From positions 1,240,001 through 1,304,000 of the forward strand of contig CABDVE010000001.1 in the NCBI GenBank assembly GCA_901420285.1: DNA of 64,000 nt, given 5' to 3'. Position numbers and translations under genes: made by a program. This document shows positions 47,851 to 55,012 of the stretch, one piece after another. The number at the start of each line of letters is the position of its first letter. The stretch's first letter is position 1. Under the pieces are notes generated by a model. That model saw only the letters and a list, made by a program, of their open reading frames with translations, was not told where the DNA came from and did not search any database. The stretch comes from Stutzerimonas stutzeri. GTDB lineage: Bacteria; Pseudomonadota; Gammaproteobacteria; Enterobacterales; Pasteurellaceae.

Positions 47851-49515
47851 TTACATTTTCGGAATTTCAACGCCGGAAGAGAGTAGGTCTTGAATATCCG
47901 ATTTCAGTACATCGGCTTTTGGTCCGTAAATAGCTTGAATGCCCGTACCTTTAACAATAAAACCCATTGCGCCTGCTTGTTTCCAAGCTATTGCATTGCC
48001 CACCAGCTCAGGGTTGTGAACGGTGATACGTAAACGGGTCATACAAGCATCCACCTCGGCAATATTGTTGCGTCCACCAAGAAGGTTGATGATTTGTACC
48101 ACTTGCGCACTGGCATTAGCGACTTTTTTCTCCTCAGTAGGGGCTTCATCAGTGCCTTTCGCATCGTAGTTGCCGTTGCGACCGGTGGTGGCTAAGTTGA
48201 GTTTCTTAATCATGAAATTCGCAATTAAGAAGGTCGCGACCGCAAACACACCGGATACCCAAATGAAGTTGATAAGATCCATGCCGATGCCCGCTTTAAT
48301 CGCCATTGGCGTACGGGTTAAAAACTCAATGTTACCGAATGAGTGAACGCGTAAGTTCACAATATCTGCCATGGCAAATGCGCAACCTTGGATAACCGCA
48401 TAAACAAGGTAAAGCGGTAGTGCAACGAACATAAACATATATTCGATAGGTTCTGTTACGCCGGTTAAGAACACGGCAAGGGCAGAAGAAAGGAAAATCC
48501 CTTTGTAGATGGTTTTCTTATCTGGATCAACGTTCATGTACATGGCGAGCGTAATTCCCATTAGAATACCGCTTGAGCCGATCATTTGACCCACTTTAAA
48601 GCGCGCAGGTGTTACGGTTGAGAGGAGTTCGTTATATTGTGTCATATTGCCCGCGTCTTTCAGGTTGATTAAATCACTGATCCAAGCGAGCCATAATGGG
48701 TCTTGTCCGAATACTTGTTTGCCTTGTTGCATACCGGTTAAGAATTCATAGGTACCGCCCAATGAGGTGTAGTTCATCGGAATGGTGAGCATATGGTGTA
48801 AACCGAAAGGCAGTAAAAGACGTTCTAATGTGCCGTAAACAAAAGGAGCAAGGATAGGTGCGGAGTCTTGTGAGTTGGCAATCCATTCGCCGAAATGATT
48901 GATTCCGGTTTGTACCACCGGCCAGAACACCGCCAACACTAACGATACTAAAACGGAACGGTAAATGACTACGAATGGCACAAAGCGTTTACCATTAAAG
49001 AAGGTAAGTACTTCAGGCAGTTTGCGGAAATTGTAGTAGCTGTTAAAGGTGGTAGCCCCTACAAAACCGGCAATGATCCCTACAAATACCCCCATGTTTA
49101 ATGCAGGTTGTCCAAGGATATTCACAAAGTAGTTGGCTACCGGAATGTCACCTACCAAGATGGTGCTGACATGGGCATTCGGATCGGTCAGCATTTCAAT
49201 TTTTACGCCGAAGAAGTGACCGGTAATTAAGTTGATTAAAATAAAGGCAAGGCCTGCGGCAAACGCACCACCTGCACGCTCATTCGCCCAACTGCCACCA
49301 ATGGCTAAAGCAAATAACAAATGCAGGTTACCGATAATGCCCCAACCGATTTGCGCGATGATATTACCTACACGCGCCAGCCATTCGACATCACTAATTA
49401 ACGGTAATGAGTTACCGATACTCACCATTAAACCTGCAGCAGGCATCACGGCAATCACCACCATCAGGCATTTGCCGAATTTTTGCCAAAATTCAAAACT
49501 GAGCAATTTTTTCAT
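47851..49515 (-). CDS. PTS glucose/maltose-type EIIBC transporter
   Basis: This 554-residue phosphotransferase permease imports and phosphorylates a sugar, probably maltose or a related glucoside given its neighbours. The IIC domain (about 1-430) begins LLSFEFWQKFGKCLMVVIAV and has LPFGLHHMLTIPMNYTSLGG. The IIB domain (about 470-550) carries the phosphocysteine in VDACMTRLRITV. No IIA domain is attached, so EIIA-Glc from elsewhere must donate phosphate. The sequence reads much more like streptococcal MalT-type permeases than enterobacterial MalX (from memory). AGGAGA precedes the ATG. Third gene of the operon. Confidence 0.88.
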   Translation of the reverse strand: MKKLLSFEFWQKFGKCLMVVIAVMPAAGLMVSIGNSLPLISDVEWLARVGNIIAQIGWGIIGNLHLLFALAIGGSWANERAGGAFAAGLAFILINLITGHFFGVKIEMLTDPNAHVSTILVGDIPVANYFVNILGQPALNMGVFVGIIAGFVGATTFNSYYNFRKLPEVLTFFNGKRFVPFVVIYRSVLVSLVLAVFWPVVQTGINHFGEWIANSQDSAPILAPFVYGTLERLLLPFGLHHMLTIPMNYTSLGGTYEFLTGMQQGKQVFGQDPLWLAWISDLINLKDAGNMTQYNELLSTVTPARFKVGQMIGSSGILMGITLAMYMNVDPDKKTIYKGIFLSSALAVFLTGVTEPIEYMFMFVALPLYLVYAVIQGCAFAMADIVNLRVHSFGNIEFLTRTPMAIKAGIGMDLINFIWVSGVFAVATFLIANFMIKKLNLATTGRNGNYDAKGTDEAPTEEKKVANASAQVVQIINLLGGRNNIAEVDACMTRLRITVHNPELVGNAIAWKQAGAMGFIVKGTGIQAIYGPKADVLKSDIQDLLSSGVEIPKM

Positions 49516-49525
49516 GTATGTTCTC

Positions 49526-50317
49526 CTACAATGTAAGCTCGACTTCCAAACCGAAATGGTCGGAAACTACCGGTTTATTTTTGCCATTAAAAACCACCTG
49601 ACTCGATAAAACCCTTTTTGCTTGATTTAAAAAAATATAATCTAAGCGTTTTTCTTCACTGTGGCCTTTCCAGCCATCAATCGCTTTTTCAACAGTAATC
49701 CCACTATCTTTCTGTTCCGCCATCTCAAAAGTATCAAGTAAACCGAGAGATTTAATTTTCTGATAAGCGTTTGAAGCGCTGATTGCATCCGTATTGAAAT
49801 CACCCATCAAAATTTTAAGATTTCGGCTTTGGCTGCGTTCTACGATATTGCGAATGTTGTCCAGTTGATTTTCACCTGCGCAATTCGGCAAGTTGATATG
49901 GCAGGAATAACAATCTACAAGTTGGCCTTGATATTCCACGGTTAAGCCAATAATTTTGCGAGAGAGTATAGAATCGAGGCGCTGATGTTGGCTGCAATAA
50001 AAAGCATCCACGTCATAAACCGGCAAGCGAGTTAAAAAGGCGATGCCTTCGTCATATTTATCGTAGCCAATATGTGAATTGCTCCAAAATAGCGAATATT
50101 TTTGTGTCACTCGTTGATTGATTTTATTCAGTAACACAACGCCATAGTTATCTTGCTTTAATGCTTGTGAAATTAGGGGAGCTGACATTAATTGATTCAC
50201 CTCTTGTAGGGCTACGATGTCGTAGCCCTTTTCAACAATGGTGTCGGCAATGATGTCGATTTTTTTCGCTTGGTTATCTTCTAACCAAGCGTGTACATTA
50301 AGGGTGAGTAGTTTCAT
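49526..50317 (-). CDS. Endonuclease/exonuclease/phosphatase (EEP) family protein
   Basis: This 263-residue protein has the DNase I-like fold: LLTLNVHAW, VALQEVNQ (Glu metal ligand), MGDFNTD (Asp/Asn) and VSDHFGLEVEL (His). The family hydrolyses phosphoesters of nucleic acids, lipids or sugars; the substrate here is unknown. Placement between the glucanotransferase-phosphorylase and the PTS gene, with 9- and 10-base gaps, suggests a sugar-phosphate or regulatory role. AAGGGGAA precedes the ATG. Confidence 0.82.
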   Translation of the reverse strand: MKLLTLNVHAWLEDNQAKKIDIIADTIVEKGYDIVALQEVNQLMSAPLISQALKQDNYGVVLLNKINQRVTQKYSLFWSNSHIGYDKYDEGIAFLTRLPVYDVDAFYCSQHQRLDSILSRKIIGLTVEYQGQLVDCYSCHINLPNCAGENQLDNIRNIVERSQSRNLKILMGDFNTDAISASNAYQKIKSLGLLDTFEMAEQKDSGITVEKAIDGWKGHSEEKRLDYIFLNQAKRVLSSQVVFNGKNKPVVSDHFGLEVELTL

Positions 50318-50326
50318 ACGTTCCCC

Positions 50327-53300
50327 TTAATCCTCACAATGCCAAATATCGGTATTATATTGCGCAATAGTACGATCCGATGAGAAGAAACCGGCTTTGG
50401 CAATGTTATGAATTACTTTTTTGTTCCAGCTATCTTGATCTTCATAATCCGCCAAAATTTGTTCTTTTGCTTTCACATACGCATCAAAATCAATTAAGGT
50501 CATAAACCAGTCTTTATTGAGCAATTCATCATATAAACGTTTTAAACGCGCTTCATTGCCCAGTTTCACCAGCGTAGAATCAAGGATAAAATCGACCGCT
50601 CTTTTAATGTATTTATCCTTTTTATAGTAATCTTTTGAAACATAACCGGCAGTTTCATACAGTTTAATAATGCTTTCTGAATCTTTACCGAAGGTGTAAA
50701 TATTTTTCGCTCCGGCTAATTCGGCAATTTCTACGTTCGCACCGTCCATTGTGCCCAAGGTTAATGCGCCATTCAGCATAAATTTCATATTGCCCGTTCC
50801 TGAAGCTTCTTTTGAGGCAAGGGAAATTTGCTCTGAAATATCTGTTGCCGGAATCAATTTTTCCGCCACGCTAACATTGTAGTTTTCCACTAAATAGACG
50901 TTTAAATACTGATTCACATCCGGATCATTATTGATTAACTCAGACAAGCAAAGAATTAAATGAATAATATCCTGTGCAATCACATAAGCCGGTGCGGCTT
51001 TCCCACCAAAAATCACGGTAATTTTACGTTTTGGCAGTTTGCCCGCTTTGATTTCAAGGTATTTATGAATCACATAAAGCGCATTCATTTGTTGGCGTTT
51101 ATATTCATGGAAACGCTTAATTTGCGTATCGATAATGGAATTCTCATCCAATTCAATGCCTTTATTTTCTTTAAGATAAGTCTTCAGAGCTAATTTATTC
51201 TGGAATTTAATTTCAGCTAATTTTTGATGTACTTTTTTGTCATCTTTAAAGGCAAGCAGTTTTTCCAATTGAGTTGCATCATGTAAGTACTCATCACCGA
51301 TAAGTTGTTTAATATAAGCGGATAACGCTTGGTTAGAAAATTCTAACCAACGACGGAAGGTGATTCCGTTAGTTTTATTATTAAACTTCTCAGGATATAT
51401 TTCATAAAACGCTTTGAGTTCGGAATTTTTCAAAATCTCCGTGTGTAATGCCGCCACACCGTTCACAGAGTTTGAAAAATGAATATCCATATGCGCCATA
51501 TGGACGCGTTTTTGCTTATCAATGATTTGTACATCAGGATTCGGATATTCTTTCTGCACTAATTTATTCAGTTTTTTGATGATCTTCACTAAATGTGGAA
51601 CCACTTCTTCTAAATAAGCTAAAGGCCATTTTTCTAAGGCTTCGGCAAGAATCGTATGGTTCGTGTAGCCCACCATATTACGTACGATTTCTACCGCTTC
51701 TGCAAATTTAATACGATGTTTTTCCGTTAATAAGCGAATCAATTCCGGAATCACCATGGATGGGTGCGTGTCATTAATTTGCACATAGGCATAATCGGCT
51801 AAATCATATAAATTACTGCCACGTTCAATGGCTTCATCAATTAATAACTGCACCGCATTGGAGACCATAAAATATTGCTGATAAATACGTAATAATTCAC
51901 CATTTTTATCGGAATCATCCGGATAAAGGAACAAGGTCAGATTTTCTTTGATTTTTGTTTTATCAAAGGTGATACCTTTTTTAATCAATTTATGATTAAT
52001 GGATTCAATATCAAATAAGTTGAGATAATTTTTGGTGTCTTTTTTGTAACCTAGAATATCAACGCGATCTAATTTAGAGGTTAACGTGAAGTCTTTAAAT
52101 GGTACTTCATAACGGATATTTGTCGGGATTAACCAAGACTCTTTTTCAATCCAATCATTCGGTTCGGCATGTTGCTCATTGTTTTTAAAGACTTGTTTAA
52201 ATAAACCGCAATGGTAATTCAAGCCTACACCTTCCGCATTTAGCCCGAGTGTGGACATGGAATCAATAAAACAGGACGCTAAACGACCTAATCCACCGTT
52301 CCCTAAAGACGGTTCCGGCTCAATATCTTCAATATGGCTTAGTGATTTTCCTGCCTGGGACAATTCATCTTTGATTTCTTGATATACGCCAAGATTGATT
52401 AAATTGTTAGACAGTAATTTACCAATCAAAAACTCCGCAGAAATGTAGTAAACCTTACGTTTAGCCGTATTTTTTCCTTTATTCGCAGCAAGGGTTTTAA
52501 CATAGTTTAATAACTGTACGTAAATGGCATGATCACTTAACTTTTCAAGTTTTTTGTTTGTTGTTTGCTGTACAAATTCACTAAATTTAATCATTATTTT
52601 TTCCTTATTGGCGCGTCCATATAGCTTAGTTATTTGGGTTAAAAAATCTTTTTTGGCGTTGGTTAAATCGCTTTCTTGTATTCGCCATTCCCAGTTTCCA
52701 CCTATAGTAGAAGGAATATTCATTCTTGAGCTGGCAGGCAAATCTAAAATATCTTGCATGGTGGCAATCGCCGTATTACTTACGGTAGCAAATAATTGGC
52801 GAATCATTGCCTGACAAACAGATTCATTTGCAGCACGATGGGTATAAGCATTGATATATTGTTGCTGTTTCGACGTTAATCCGTCATACCAACCGTTTGT
52901 GACATCATTGTCATGTGTGCCGGTGTAGGCAATGCAATGCGGAATGCAATAATGTGGGCTATCCAGGCTTTCACCACTCACATCTTCAAAACCGAATTGC
53001 AAAATTTTCATGCCGGGATAACCGCAATCAACCAGTAATTTCTTCGCTTTTTCATCAATATTGCCGAGATCTTCAGCAATAATCGGCAAATCGCCTAGCT
53101 GTGCTTTTACTGCTTTGAACAAATCATATCCTGGGCCGGGTTGCCAGCTACCATATTTGGCAATGTCTGCTTTACCATCCACTTGCCAATAATCGGAGAA
53201 ACCTTTGAAATGATCGATACGAAGTACATCGTAAATTTTAAAGCTTTCCTCAATGCGATGAATCCACCAAGCATAGCCTTGTTTCTTATGTTCAGCCCAG

Positions 53301-54100
53301 TCATAAAGCGGGTTTCCCCAAAGCTGTCCGGTGGCGCTAAACTGATCGGCAGGAACACCGGCAACGAAAAGTGGATTGCGTTCTTTATCTAATTGAAAGA
53401 GTTCCGGCATTGTCCACACTTCGACGCTGTCTGCCGCCACATAAATCGGCATATCGCCGATAATTTTAATTCCTCTTTGATTAGCGTAATTTTTCAATGC
53501 CAACCATTGTTGGAAAAAGAAATATTGCGTTACTTTGAAATACTGAATTTGCTCTGTCAGCATTGAACGGTATTTTGCAAGTGCTTCAGGGTGACGGGCA
53601 ACAACCTGTTTATCTTCCCATTCTTGTAGAGCCTTATTGCCGAAATGCTCTTTGATTGCCATAAACTCTGCATAATTTTCCAACCAAGTGCGGTTGCTTT
53701 TTTCAAAGTTTTTGAAGGCTGCTTGATGTTTTTTATCGGCGAGGAAATGTTTGACGGCAATTTCTAAGATCGGGCGACGTGCATGAAAAATGCGCTCGTA
53801 ATCTACTTTTGTCGGATCATCGCCAAAATTAACCGAAGCATAATCCGTTTCTTGCAATAAACCCATTTGGGTGAGTAAAGCAAAATCAATTAAATGTGTG
53901 TTACCTGCAATAGCAGAGAAGGATTGATAAGGAGAATCACCGTAGCTGGTGGTGGTTAATGGAAGGATTTGCCAATAGGTTTGTTTCGTTTCAACTAAAA
54001 AATCCACAAAATCATAAGCAGATTGTCCAAAACTACCAATTCCAAATGCATTGGGTAATGAGGTGATATGCATTAAAACACCACTTGACCGAGTAAGCAT
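50327..54100 (-). CDS. malQ-glgP: Fused 4-alpha-glucanotransferase (MalQ) and glycogen/maltodextrin phosphorylase (GlgP/MalP)
   Basis: A single 1257-residue frame. Residues 1-502 are a complete GH77 amylomaltase (start [14 protein letters not shown]; nucleophile region [19 protein letters not shown]). Residues 503-1257 are a complete GT35 phosphorylase, with the PLP region [20 protein letters not shown] in two parts. At the junction (52594) the phosphorylase ATG is preceded by AAGGAAAAAATA, nearly the same as before the malQ ATG (54100), so it looks like a former intergenic ribosome site. The amylomaltase ends LYGR, its usual C-terminus, then ANKEKI joins. A free phosphorylase could still be made from the internal start. 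Both halves read streptococcal. The start at 54160 is rejected for lack of family match. Confidence 0.9.
52592..52608 (-). promoter_or_regulatory. Internal ribosome-binding site and start codon for the phosphorylase half
   Basis: On the minus strand AAGGAAAAAATAATG ends in the ATG at 52594-52592, which begins MIKFSEF, the usual N-terminus of the phosphorylase. Just before it lies GGACGCGCC (52611-52619). Confidence 0.7.
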
Positions 54101-54161
54101 AATTTTTTCCTTCAGAAGTAAAAGTTGTAGAGATTCTAATCTAAATTTTATTTTACACAAT

Positions 54162-54298: not shown

Positions 54299-55012
54299 GT
54301 GAGTAAATACAAAGCGGTTTATAACGATATAAAAAGCAAAATAACCGATGGAATTTTACCGCCAAAGCAAGAATTACCCAGTGAAAGTGAGCTTATGCAA
54401 GAATATGGCTTTTCTAAAGATACCATTCGCAAGGCCCTTTCTCTGCTTGAAATGGACGGTTACATTCAGAAACAACAGGGGCGAACTTCTATTGTTCTCG
54501 AACATAATTTATCTACACCTCAACAGCTTTCCGAAATCAAAACCGTTGGTGAGTTGAATCGTCCTTTAACCCATCAAGTGAAAACAACCCTAACCAGTTT
54601 GTATATTGTGCAAGGGGAAGAAGAACTAATGCGGATCTTTAACGTAAATGATCAGATTGATTTTTACCGTATAGGTCGCGTTCGTGAAATTAACGGGGAA
54701 GCGGTGGAATATGAAGTTTCTTATTTTGATCGTCGTATTGTTCCTTTTATTAATCGTGAGATTGCGGAACAATCCATTTATCACTATTTAGAAAGTGAAC
54801 TAGGTCTAAAAATTAGTTATTCACAGCGTGAAATTGCGTTTCGTTATGCTAATGAAGAAGAAAAAAGCACTATGGATCTCGGTGAATATAATATGGTTGT
54901 GAATGTTACCAGCATCACTTATTTAGCCGACGGACGCCCATTTCAGTACGGCAGTATTAGTTATCGCCCCGATAAAATTACCTTTGCTTCCACTGCGAAG
55001 CGACATGTTTAA
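54299..55012 (+). CDS. GntR/HutC-family sugar-responsive regulator (TreR-like)
   Basis: This 237-residue regulator has an N-terminal winged helix (LPSESELMQEYGFSKDTIRK, the typical GntR helix-turn-helix) and a C-terminal UTRA effector domain (about 90-230). It resembles TreR-type repressors of Firmicutes. It starts at GTG (54299), with GGAG 7 bases upstream. It diverges from the malQ-glgP operon and probably represses it until a sugar or sugar phosphate binds. Confidence 0.85.
   Translation: MSKYKAVYNDIKSKITDGILPPKQELPSESELMQEYGFSKDTIRKALSLLEMDGYIQKQQGRTSIVLEHNLSTPQQLSEIKTVGELNRPLTHQVKTTLTSLYIVQGEEELMRIFNVNDQIDFYRIGRVREINGEAVEYEVSYFDRRIVPFINREIAEQSIYHYLESELGLKISYSQREIAFRYANEEEKSTMDLGEYNMVVNVTSITYLADGRPFQYGSISYRPDKITFASTAKRHV

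Follow-up and report, generated by a model that had tools for sequence, protein, structure and literature searches.

Amylomaltase and phosphorylase in one reading frame in Pasteurellaceae: a probably long-lived fusion that small spacer changes may make and undo

RESULTS

Two complete enzymes in one reading frame

We analyzed a 64,000-nucleotide (nt) stretch, called the window here, of contig CABDVE010000001.1 from a Pasteurellaceae genome (GenBank assembly GCA_901420285.1, listed under Stutzerimonas stutzeri); all coordinates are window positions. On its minus strand, an amylomaltase gene (malQ) and a phosphorylase gene (malP) share a single open reading frame, with the following parts.

50327..54100, minus strand: fused malQ-malP open reading frame, 1257 amino acids (aa), stop-free from the ATG at 54100 to the stop at 50327
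52613..54100, minus strand: MalQ half (GH77 4-alpha-glucanotransferase), aa 1-496, C terminus LYGR; matches PF02446 (563 bits), NF011078, and TIGR00217
50327..52594, minus strand: MalP half (GT35 phosphorylase), 755 aa, of the short streptococcal type; matches PF00343

The frame had been picked out in an earlier sequence-only reading of the window, whose description of an amylomaltase and a phosphorylase in one frame agrees with the 1,257 stop-free codons. Its view that both halves are complete is borne out by near-full profile coverage, as the Pfam domain Glyco_hydro_77 spans aa 10-479 (profile positions 1-464 of 465) and the Phosphorylase domain spans aa 581-1254 (positions 2-712 of 713). 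The masses that it predicted (145, 57, and 86 kDa) lie near those computed for the whole MalQ-MalP chain (144.2 kDa), for the part preceding an internal ATG at the junction (57.4 kDa), and for the 755-aa product that initiation at this ATG would yield (86.8 kDa).

The MalQ half scores 563 bits against PF02446 (cut-off, 25), 873.8 against NF011078 (776), and 324 against TIGR00217 (205.65). Judged by these full-length matches above curated cut-offs, it is a short bacterial-type GH77 enzyme. The MalP half clears the cut-offs of PF00343 (846 bits versus 27) and TIGR02093 (889.5 versus 552.9) and misses those of the Escherichia coli-type equivalogs NF011561 (634.6 versus 1273) and NF011562 (595.4 versus 1546). 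Its scores indicate the short streptococcal type and not the E. coli orthologue of maltodextrin phosphorylase (NF011561) or glycogen phosphorylase (NF011562). Among solved relatives, 4l22 gave it the top score (1332 bits).

All five catalytic-motif strings sought in the fused chain are present. In the MalQ half, RIDHF lies at 294, AEDLG at 342, and GTHDND at 394, regions that we take to be the catalytic Asp/Glu/Asp motifs; in the MalP half, a 10-letter motif from aa 1098, presumably that of the pyridoxal-phosphate lysine, aligns with 4l22. The same genome encodes a second phosphorylase with 41% identity to the MalP half. None of the 14 matching NCBIfam models covers GH77 and GT35 together.

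Fused and split pairs among relatives

We searched a collection holding about one genome per species, scoring few candidates per genome in the Pasteurellaceae, Streptococcaceae, and Clostridia sets, so that all fusion counts are lower bounds. A whole, stop-free fusion occurs in at least 18 of 140 Pasteurellaceae genomes, namely at least 6 of 15 in g1, the genus group to which the window belongs, 6 of 9 in g5, and 6 of 11 in g22. In 16 further Pasteurellaceae genomes malQ and malP are adjacent but split, and so about half of the 34 carriers of the pair have it fused. Fused members include Aggregatibacter segnis, A. kilianii, Rodentibacter ratti, R. mrazii, Rodentibacter sp. Ppn85, two Haemophilus parainfluenzae strains, and G013, the second genome of the species that the window comes from; split members include R. 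heidelbergensis, H. sputorum, and Actinobacillus porcinus. In one genome of the Aggregatibacter group (G030, in g5), malP is preceded only by the last malQ codons, after a ribosome-binding site of the same type.

The junction and its spacer

The junction reads TAT GGA CGC GCC AAT AAG GAA AAA ATA ATG ATT AAA and contains, or corresponds to, the following elements.

52595..52612, minus strand: linker codons A-N-K-E-K-I, 18 nt long in all 18 fused Pasteurellaceae genes
52602..52606, minus strand: internal Shine-Dalgarno (SD) motif AAGGA, the former malP ribosome-binding site; duplex energy of -4.8 kcal/mol with the anti-SD 9-mer
52597..52602, minus strand: A-run between the SD and the internal ATG, sharing the last A of the SD; the stretch from this run to the ATG holds most of the length differences between fused and split genes
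52592..52594, minus strand: internal ATG, the former malP start, codon 503, kept in all 18 fused Pasteurellaceae genes
54108..54112, minus strand: SD motif AAGGA of the first start codon

Between the LYxR motif that ends MalQ and the malP ATG lie 18 nt in every one of the 18 fused genes. No split gene has this spacing; the 16 measure 17 nt (n = 2), 19 nt (n = 9), 20 nt (n = 3), or 22 nt (n = 2). The segment made of LYxR, one codon, and AAT does not vary in length among the 34 genomes, fused or split. By eye, the length difference of the split genes lies only between AGG and ATG, in mostly A-rich sequence, in 11 of 16, only between AAT and AGG in 4 (an extra T giving an AAT-TAA at which malQ ends in 2, and four extra bases in 2), and at both places in 1. 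The A-run is A6 in the window and no longer than A8 among the 34 Pasteurellaceae. In 13 of the 16 split genes the end of malQ, stop codon included, shares 1 to 14 nt with the beginning of malP; the overlap is 8 nt in 10 close streptococcal pairs, which suggests that even beforehand the pair probably needed no more than one small indel to become fused.

Ahead of the first start codon stands AAGGAAAAAATTATG, which the internal AAGGAAAAAATAATG nearly repeats, as the sequence-only reading had pointed out in describing a former ribosome-binding site within the join. In the window gene, 1 of 20 other in-frame ATGs and 10% of all codon positions match the strength of the internal SD. This SD is kept in 16 of the 18 fused genes (duplex energy, -4.3 to -7.7 kcal/mol), each of which has 0 or 1 equally strong site among its 18 to 23 other in-frame ATGs. 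The codon after A-N is AAG in 12 and CAG in 6 of the 18, although in fused genes AAG makes up only 11.6% of Lys codons and CAG 19.5% of Gln codons. Because the former ribosome-binding site is still recognizable in the join, an output of both fusion and free phosphorylase, the latter already suggested in the earlier reading, is plausible. Given the kept SD and the ATG kept throughout, free MalP is probably still produced to some extent in most fused carriers.

Changes of state, age, and selection

Fusion states were mapped on a 47-row codon tree of concatenated malQ and malP, built from 34 Pasteurellaceae genomes, one duplicate, and 12 Streptococcus. Well-supported branches force six changes of state, including that of S. 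macacae, and all 10 close streptococcal outgroup pairs are split. Single-gene trees (44 rows) give seven changes for malQ, four of them forced, and six for malP, all forced. On these trees the fusion state has changed several times. Within Rodentibacter, the split genes of G002 and G012 are nested among fused ones, as would be expected if a fusion had been either undone or repeatedly gained.

Using our own Nei-Gojobori script, we obtained a median dN/dS of about 0.05 for each half, whether the genes were fused or split, a value that indicates strong purifying selection on MalQ and MalP alike. A supported, all-fused clade of seven genomes (the window's and Aggregatibacter) reaches a dS of 0.95 (G000-G033), and 1.2 to 1.8 if G036 is included, a genome whose membership is well supported in the malP tree only. 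These distances imply that the fusion is not recent, with both enzymes still constrained. In the H. parainfluenzae group (G086, G087, and G089) malQ is nearly identical and malP has diverged (dS of 0.017 versus 0.245 for G087-G086), which points to recombination inside the locus; some state changes in this group may be imports rather than new mutations.

Fusions outside the Pasteurellaceae

The centers of the Streptococcaceae sample (G140) and of the Clostridia sample (G142) were picked for being fused. A stop-free, full-length fusion was found in at least 2 of 245 sampled Streptococcaceae genomes (S. macacae and G246, one of them the chosen center), and at least 44 more have full-length one-frame matches broken by one to three stops. 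In Clostridia the count is at least 2 of 196, one being the chosen center and the other, G503, confirmed as fused. Counting that center, two Lachnospiraceae genomes and one Erysipelotrichaceae genome from uncultured sources carry a fusion. In S. macacae, G246, G503, and these three, the domains come in the same order as in the window and in one frame; their linkers differ from the window's, so they are probably separate fusion events. The examined linker stretch of G246 is without an ATG, and free phosphorylase seems unlikely there.

Some candidates were discarded. Among seven Clostridia stretches in which a long frame (at least ~1,300 aa) lies beside a phosphorylase, six proved to contain separate frames (on inspection by eye, the neighbor is glgA-like in four and malQ-like in two), and only G503 was fused. 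The candidate G317 also turned out to be split. A Fisher comparison (18 fused and 16 split versus 2 and 234) was not used as evidence, because the genomes are related, the total of 236 counts any match, and the center G140 was chosen for being fused. As judged from these genomes, fusion of the pair recurs, with a higher frequency in the examined Pasteurellaceae than in the other groups sampled.

Structure prediction

An AlphaFold2 run on residues 1-1200 with a 59-row alignment gave a mean pLDDT of 84.6, with most of the MalQ and MalP halves folded well. Helix 481-493 closes MalQ and helix 506-514 opens MalP, with a low-confidence coil between them (around aa 500-502).

Neighboring genes and transfer of the locus

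The fused gene lies among the following features.

49526..50317, minus strand: endonuclease/exonuclease/phosphatase-family (EEP) protein, next downstream gene; PF03372; also near malP in streptococci
47851..49515, minus strand: phosphotransferase system (PTS) sugar transporter subunit IIBC, downstream of the EEP gene; TIGR02003, 930.9 bits versus a cut-off of 649.85
54299..55012, plus strand: divergent GntR/UTRA regulator; PF00392 and PF07702
47796..57504, no strand assigned: block from metE to the PTS gene, 93.7% identical over 9,756 nt to Aggregatibacter segnis; its ends lie inside the compared stretch

The transporter, the EEP-family protein, and the regulator are consistent with sugar uptake and its control. 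The same GntR, malQ, malP (glgP), EEP, and PTS IIBC genes are found together in S. suis, S. acidominimus, S. cuniculi, and S. plurextorum, with identities of 73 to 74% for MalQ, 81 to 82% for MalP, and 80 to 82% for the PTS protein. The streptococcal pair differs in occupying two reading frames, joined in the 10 close pairs by the stop/start overlap described above. Among the matches listed, the regulator was found in seven of the eight that belong to the S. suis and S. acidominimus group; in the listed loci of S. suis, S. entericus, and S. plurextorum it stands between malP and the EEP gene, unlike the divergent gene of the window. An operon of this Streptococcus type occurs in the window and in some other Pasteurellaceae, with the direction of its transfer presumed.

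In the same genome, rpoB and its flanks are 82.1% identical to A. segnis over 5,472 nt and 88.3% over a further 1,376 nt, and the rpoB tree places the genome with Rodentibacter. The block of about 9.7 kb was probably acquired from the Aggregatibacter lineage by horizontal transfer. The window contains 17 sites of AAGTGCGGT, presumably the Haemophilus-type DNA uptake signal, versus 0.45 expected, and three of them lie inside the block (53686, 56199, and 56290). This excess fits transfer by natural transformation.

DISCUSSION

We conclude, with a probability of roughly 0.78, that malQ-malP is a genuine and long-lived fusion, gained and undone by small changes in the spacer, and that its product is most likely a working bifunctional enzyme; from the sequences we infer both activities and their synergy. 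In the Streptococcus-type operon, the malP ribosome-binding site sits within the last malQ codons. Changes of one or a few bases near this site, mostly between SD and ATG, would bring the genes into frame at 18 nt, and such changes would also undo the frame at 17, 19, 20, or 22 nt. Such changes would have happened several times, in directions that we infer for each case.

Fusions of other alpha-glucan enzymes are already known. GlgX-MalQ (NCBIfam NF011083) likewise places cooperating enzymes in one chain, as do GlgB-MalQ of Neisseria suica and TreS-Mak/Pep2, described in an earlier account (PMC11046441), all with other partners. We found no description of a MalQ-MalP fusion in the open-licence literature at the level of titles and abstract openings. 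The closest parallel that we can offer is the plant complex of Pho1 and Dpe1, likewise a GT35 phosphorylase and a GH77 disproportionating enzyme in one particle. A sweet potato study states that Pho1 alone is inactive on maltotriose and maltotetraose, that the Pho1-Dpe1 complex is active on them, and that Dpe1 turnover of maltotetraose rises about 1.5-fold in the complex (PMC5417683). A February 2026 review reports a 1:1 complex of PHO1 and DPE1 in rice, calls the Pho1-Dpe1 interface an open question, and describes the complex as still without a high-resolution structure (PMC12892837). Despite that last statement, PDB entries 9lpw, 9lpz, and 9m80 contain both plant phosphorylase and DPE1 chains. 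The plant partnership is noncovalent and made of two gene products, whereas the bacterial link is covalent; by analogy, the fusion resembles a covalent version of it. MalQ would convert maltotriose and maltotetraose, which are poor phosphorylase substrates, into longer chains and glucose, and the tethered MalP would then turn the longer chains into glucose 1-phosphate.

Several observations weigh against a long-lived, working fusion. The 18 fused genomes share ancestry and are not independent cases, and recombination inside the locus can inflate the number of events. Since fused and split forms are equally constrained, the fusion could be neutral. In the AlphaFold2 model, a pTM of 0.59 leaves the relative placement of the domains without confidence, and no fixed arrangement of MalQ against MalP was found; pLDDT also falls below 50 outside the linker, at 600-607, 815-818, 909-913, and 1100-1125, the last including the cofactor-lysine region. 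The internal SD of the 16 fused genes is, measured against their own sequences, of ordinary strength, since equally strong matches precede from 1.4% (G036) to 12.4% of all codon positions. The invariant internal ATG alone is weak evidence, as invariance among the 18 extends to 17 of the window protein's 22 other Met codons. Finally, the GG of the SD is gone in 2 of the 18, A. segnis (G035) and A. kilianii (G032), where the energy is -0.1 kcal/mol, so dual output is not universal. In these two the malP half is still constrained, and MalP is probably made mainly within the fusion, which itself favors a functional fused chain.

The most serious alternative is that the fusion is neutral, with the frame drifting in and out, given that only a small indel separates the malP start from the malQ frame, and with fused enzymes no better or worse than separate ones. 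This explanation overlaps with ours and denies only a benefit, and we regard it as quite possible, at somewhat under even odds. It would account for the mix of fused and split genes with similar dN/dS within genus groups, for reversal or repeated gain within Rodentibacter, and for split spacers that vary among 17, 19, 20, and 22 nt. It sits less easily with a supported all-fused clade reaching a dS of 0.95, with the few fusions elsewhere (at least 2 of 245 Streptococcaceae and 2 of 196 Clostridia, in samples whose centers were each chosen fused), and with the physical association of the same two enzymes in plants.

We consider it improbable that split genes, too, yield a joined product through programmed frameshifting or through slippage of the transcript in the A-run, the fusion in DNA merely fixing what recoding already does. 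Runs of A7 or A8 stand at the frame transition in five of eight split genes of g1, and there is a published description of frame transitions between neighboring genes that have fused homologues elsewhere (PMC3711429). Against this, spacers of 17 and 20 nt and those of 19 and 22 nt would need opposite shifts, which rules out a conserved programmed frameshift signal, and several split genes are without a long A-run.

A third proposal, made in the sequence-only reading, was that a 2-base gain in a GCGC repeat removed a TAA stop just after the MalQ C terminus (GGA-CGC-CAA-TAA). GCGC is indeed present at 52611-52614, and the arithmetic holds for the window sequence taken alone. The survey of related strains that was to check it did recover the same fusion in 17 other genomes, but the short GC run and the predicted TAA end of malQ appear in none of the 16 split relatives, and the constant length of LYxR, codon, and AAT in all 34 genomes contradicts a gain at this place; we regard this origin as highly improbable. 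A sequencing or assembly slip in a truly split pair has a negligible chance of being correct, for although the frame hinges on a single spacer containing a homopolymer, the 18-nt phase is shared by the 17 other fused Pasteurellaceae genomes, several with different linkers.

Returning to the fusion as a genuine and probably functional one, its ordinary aspect is that it joins two operon neighbors; what is unusual is that it recurs, that it is probably reversible, and that it matches a plant enzyme complex. It is conceivable, if unlikely, that the A-rich spacer acts as a reversible switch, in which changes of one or two bases would alternate tethered and free enzymes between lineages, and perhaps between cells of one strain, tuning the use of short maltodextrins, with the fused chain as the bacterial counterpart of Pho1-Dpe1.

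A single chain making glucose 1-phosphate from maltotriose would suit cell-free starch conversion, and the fusion would provide a natural bacterial model for the poorly understood plant Pho1-Dpe1 complex. Gene fusions are usually seen as rare and nearly irreversible, and here one operon can be compared between fused and split sister lineages. With the DNA changes between these states visible, what two cooperating enzymes gain and lose by being tethered would become measurable.

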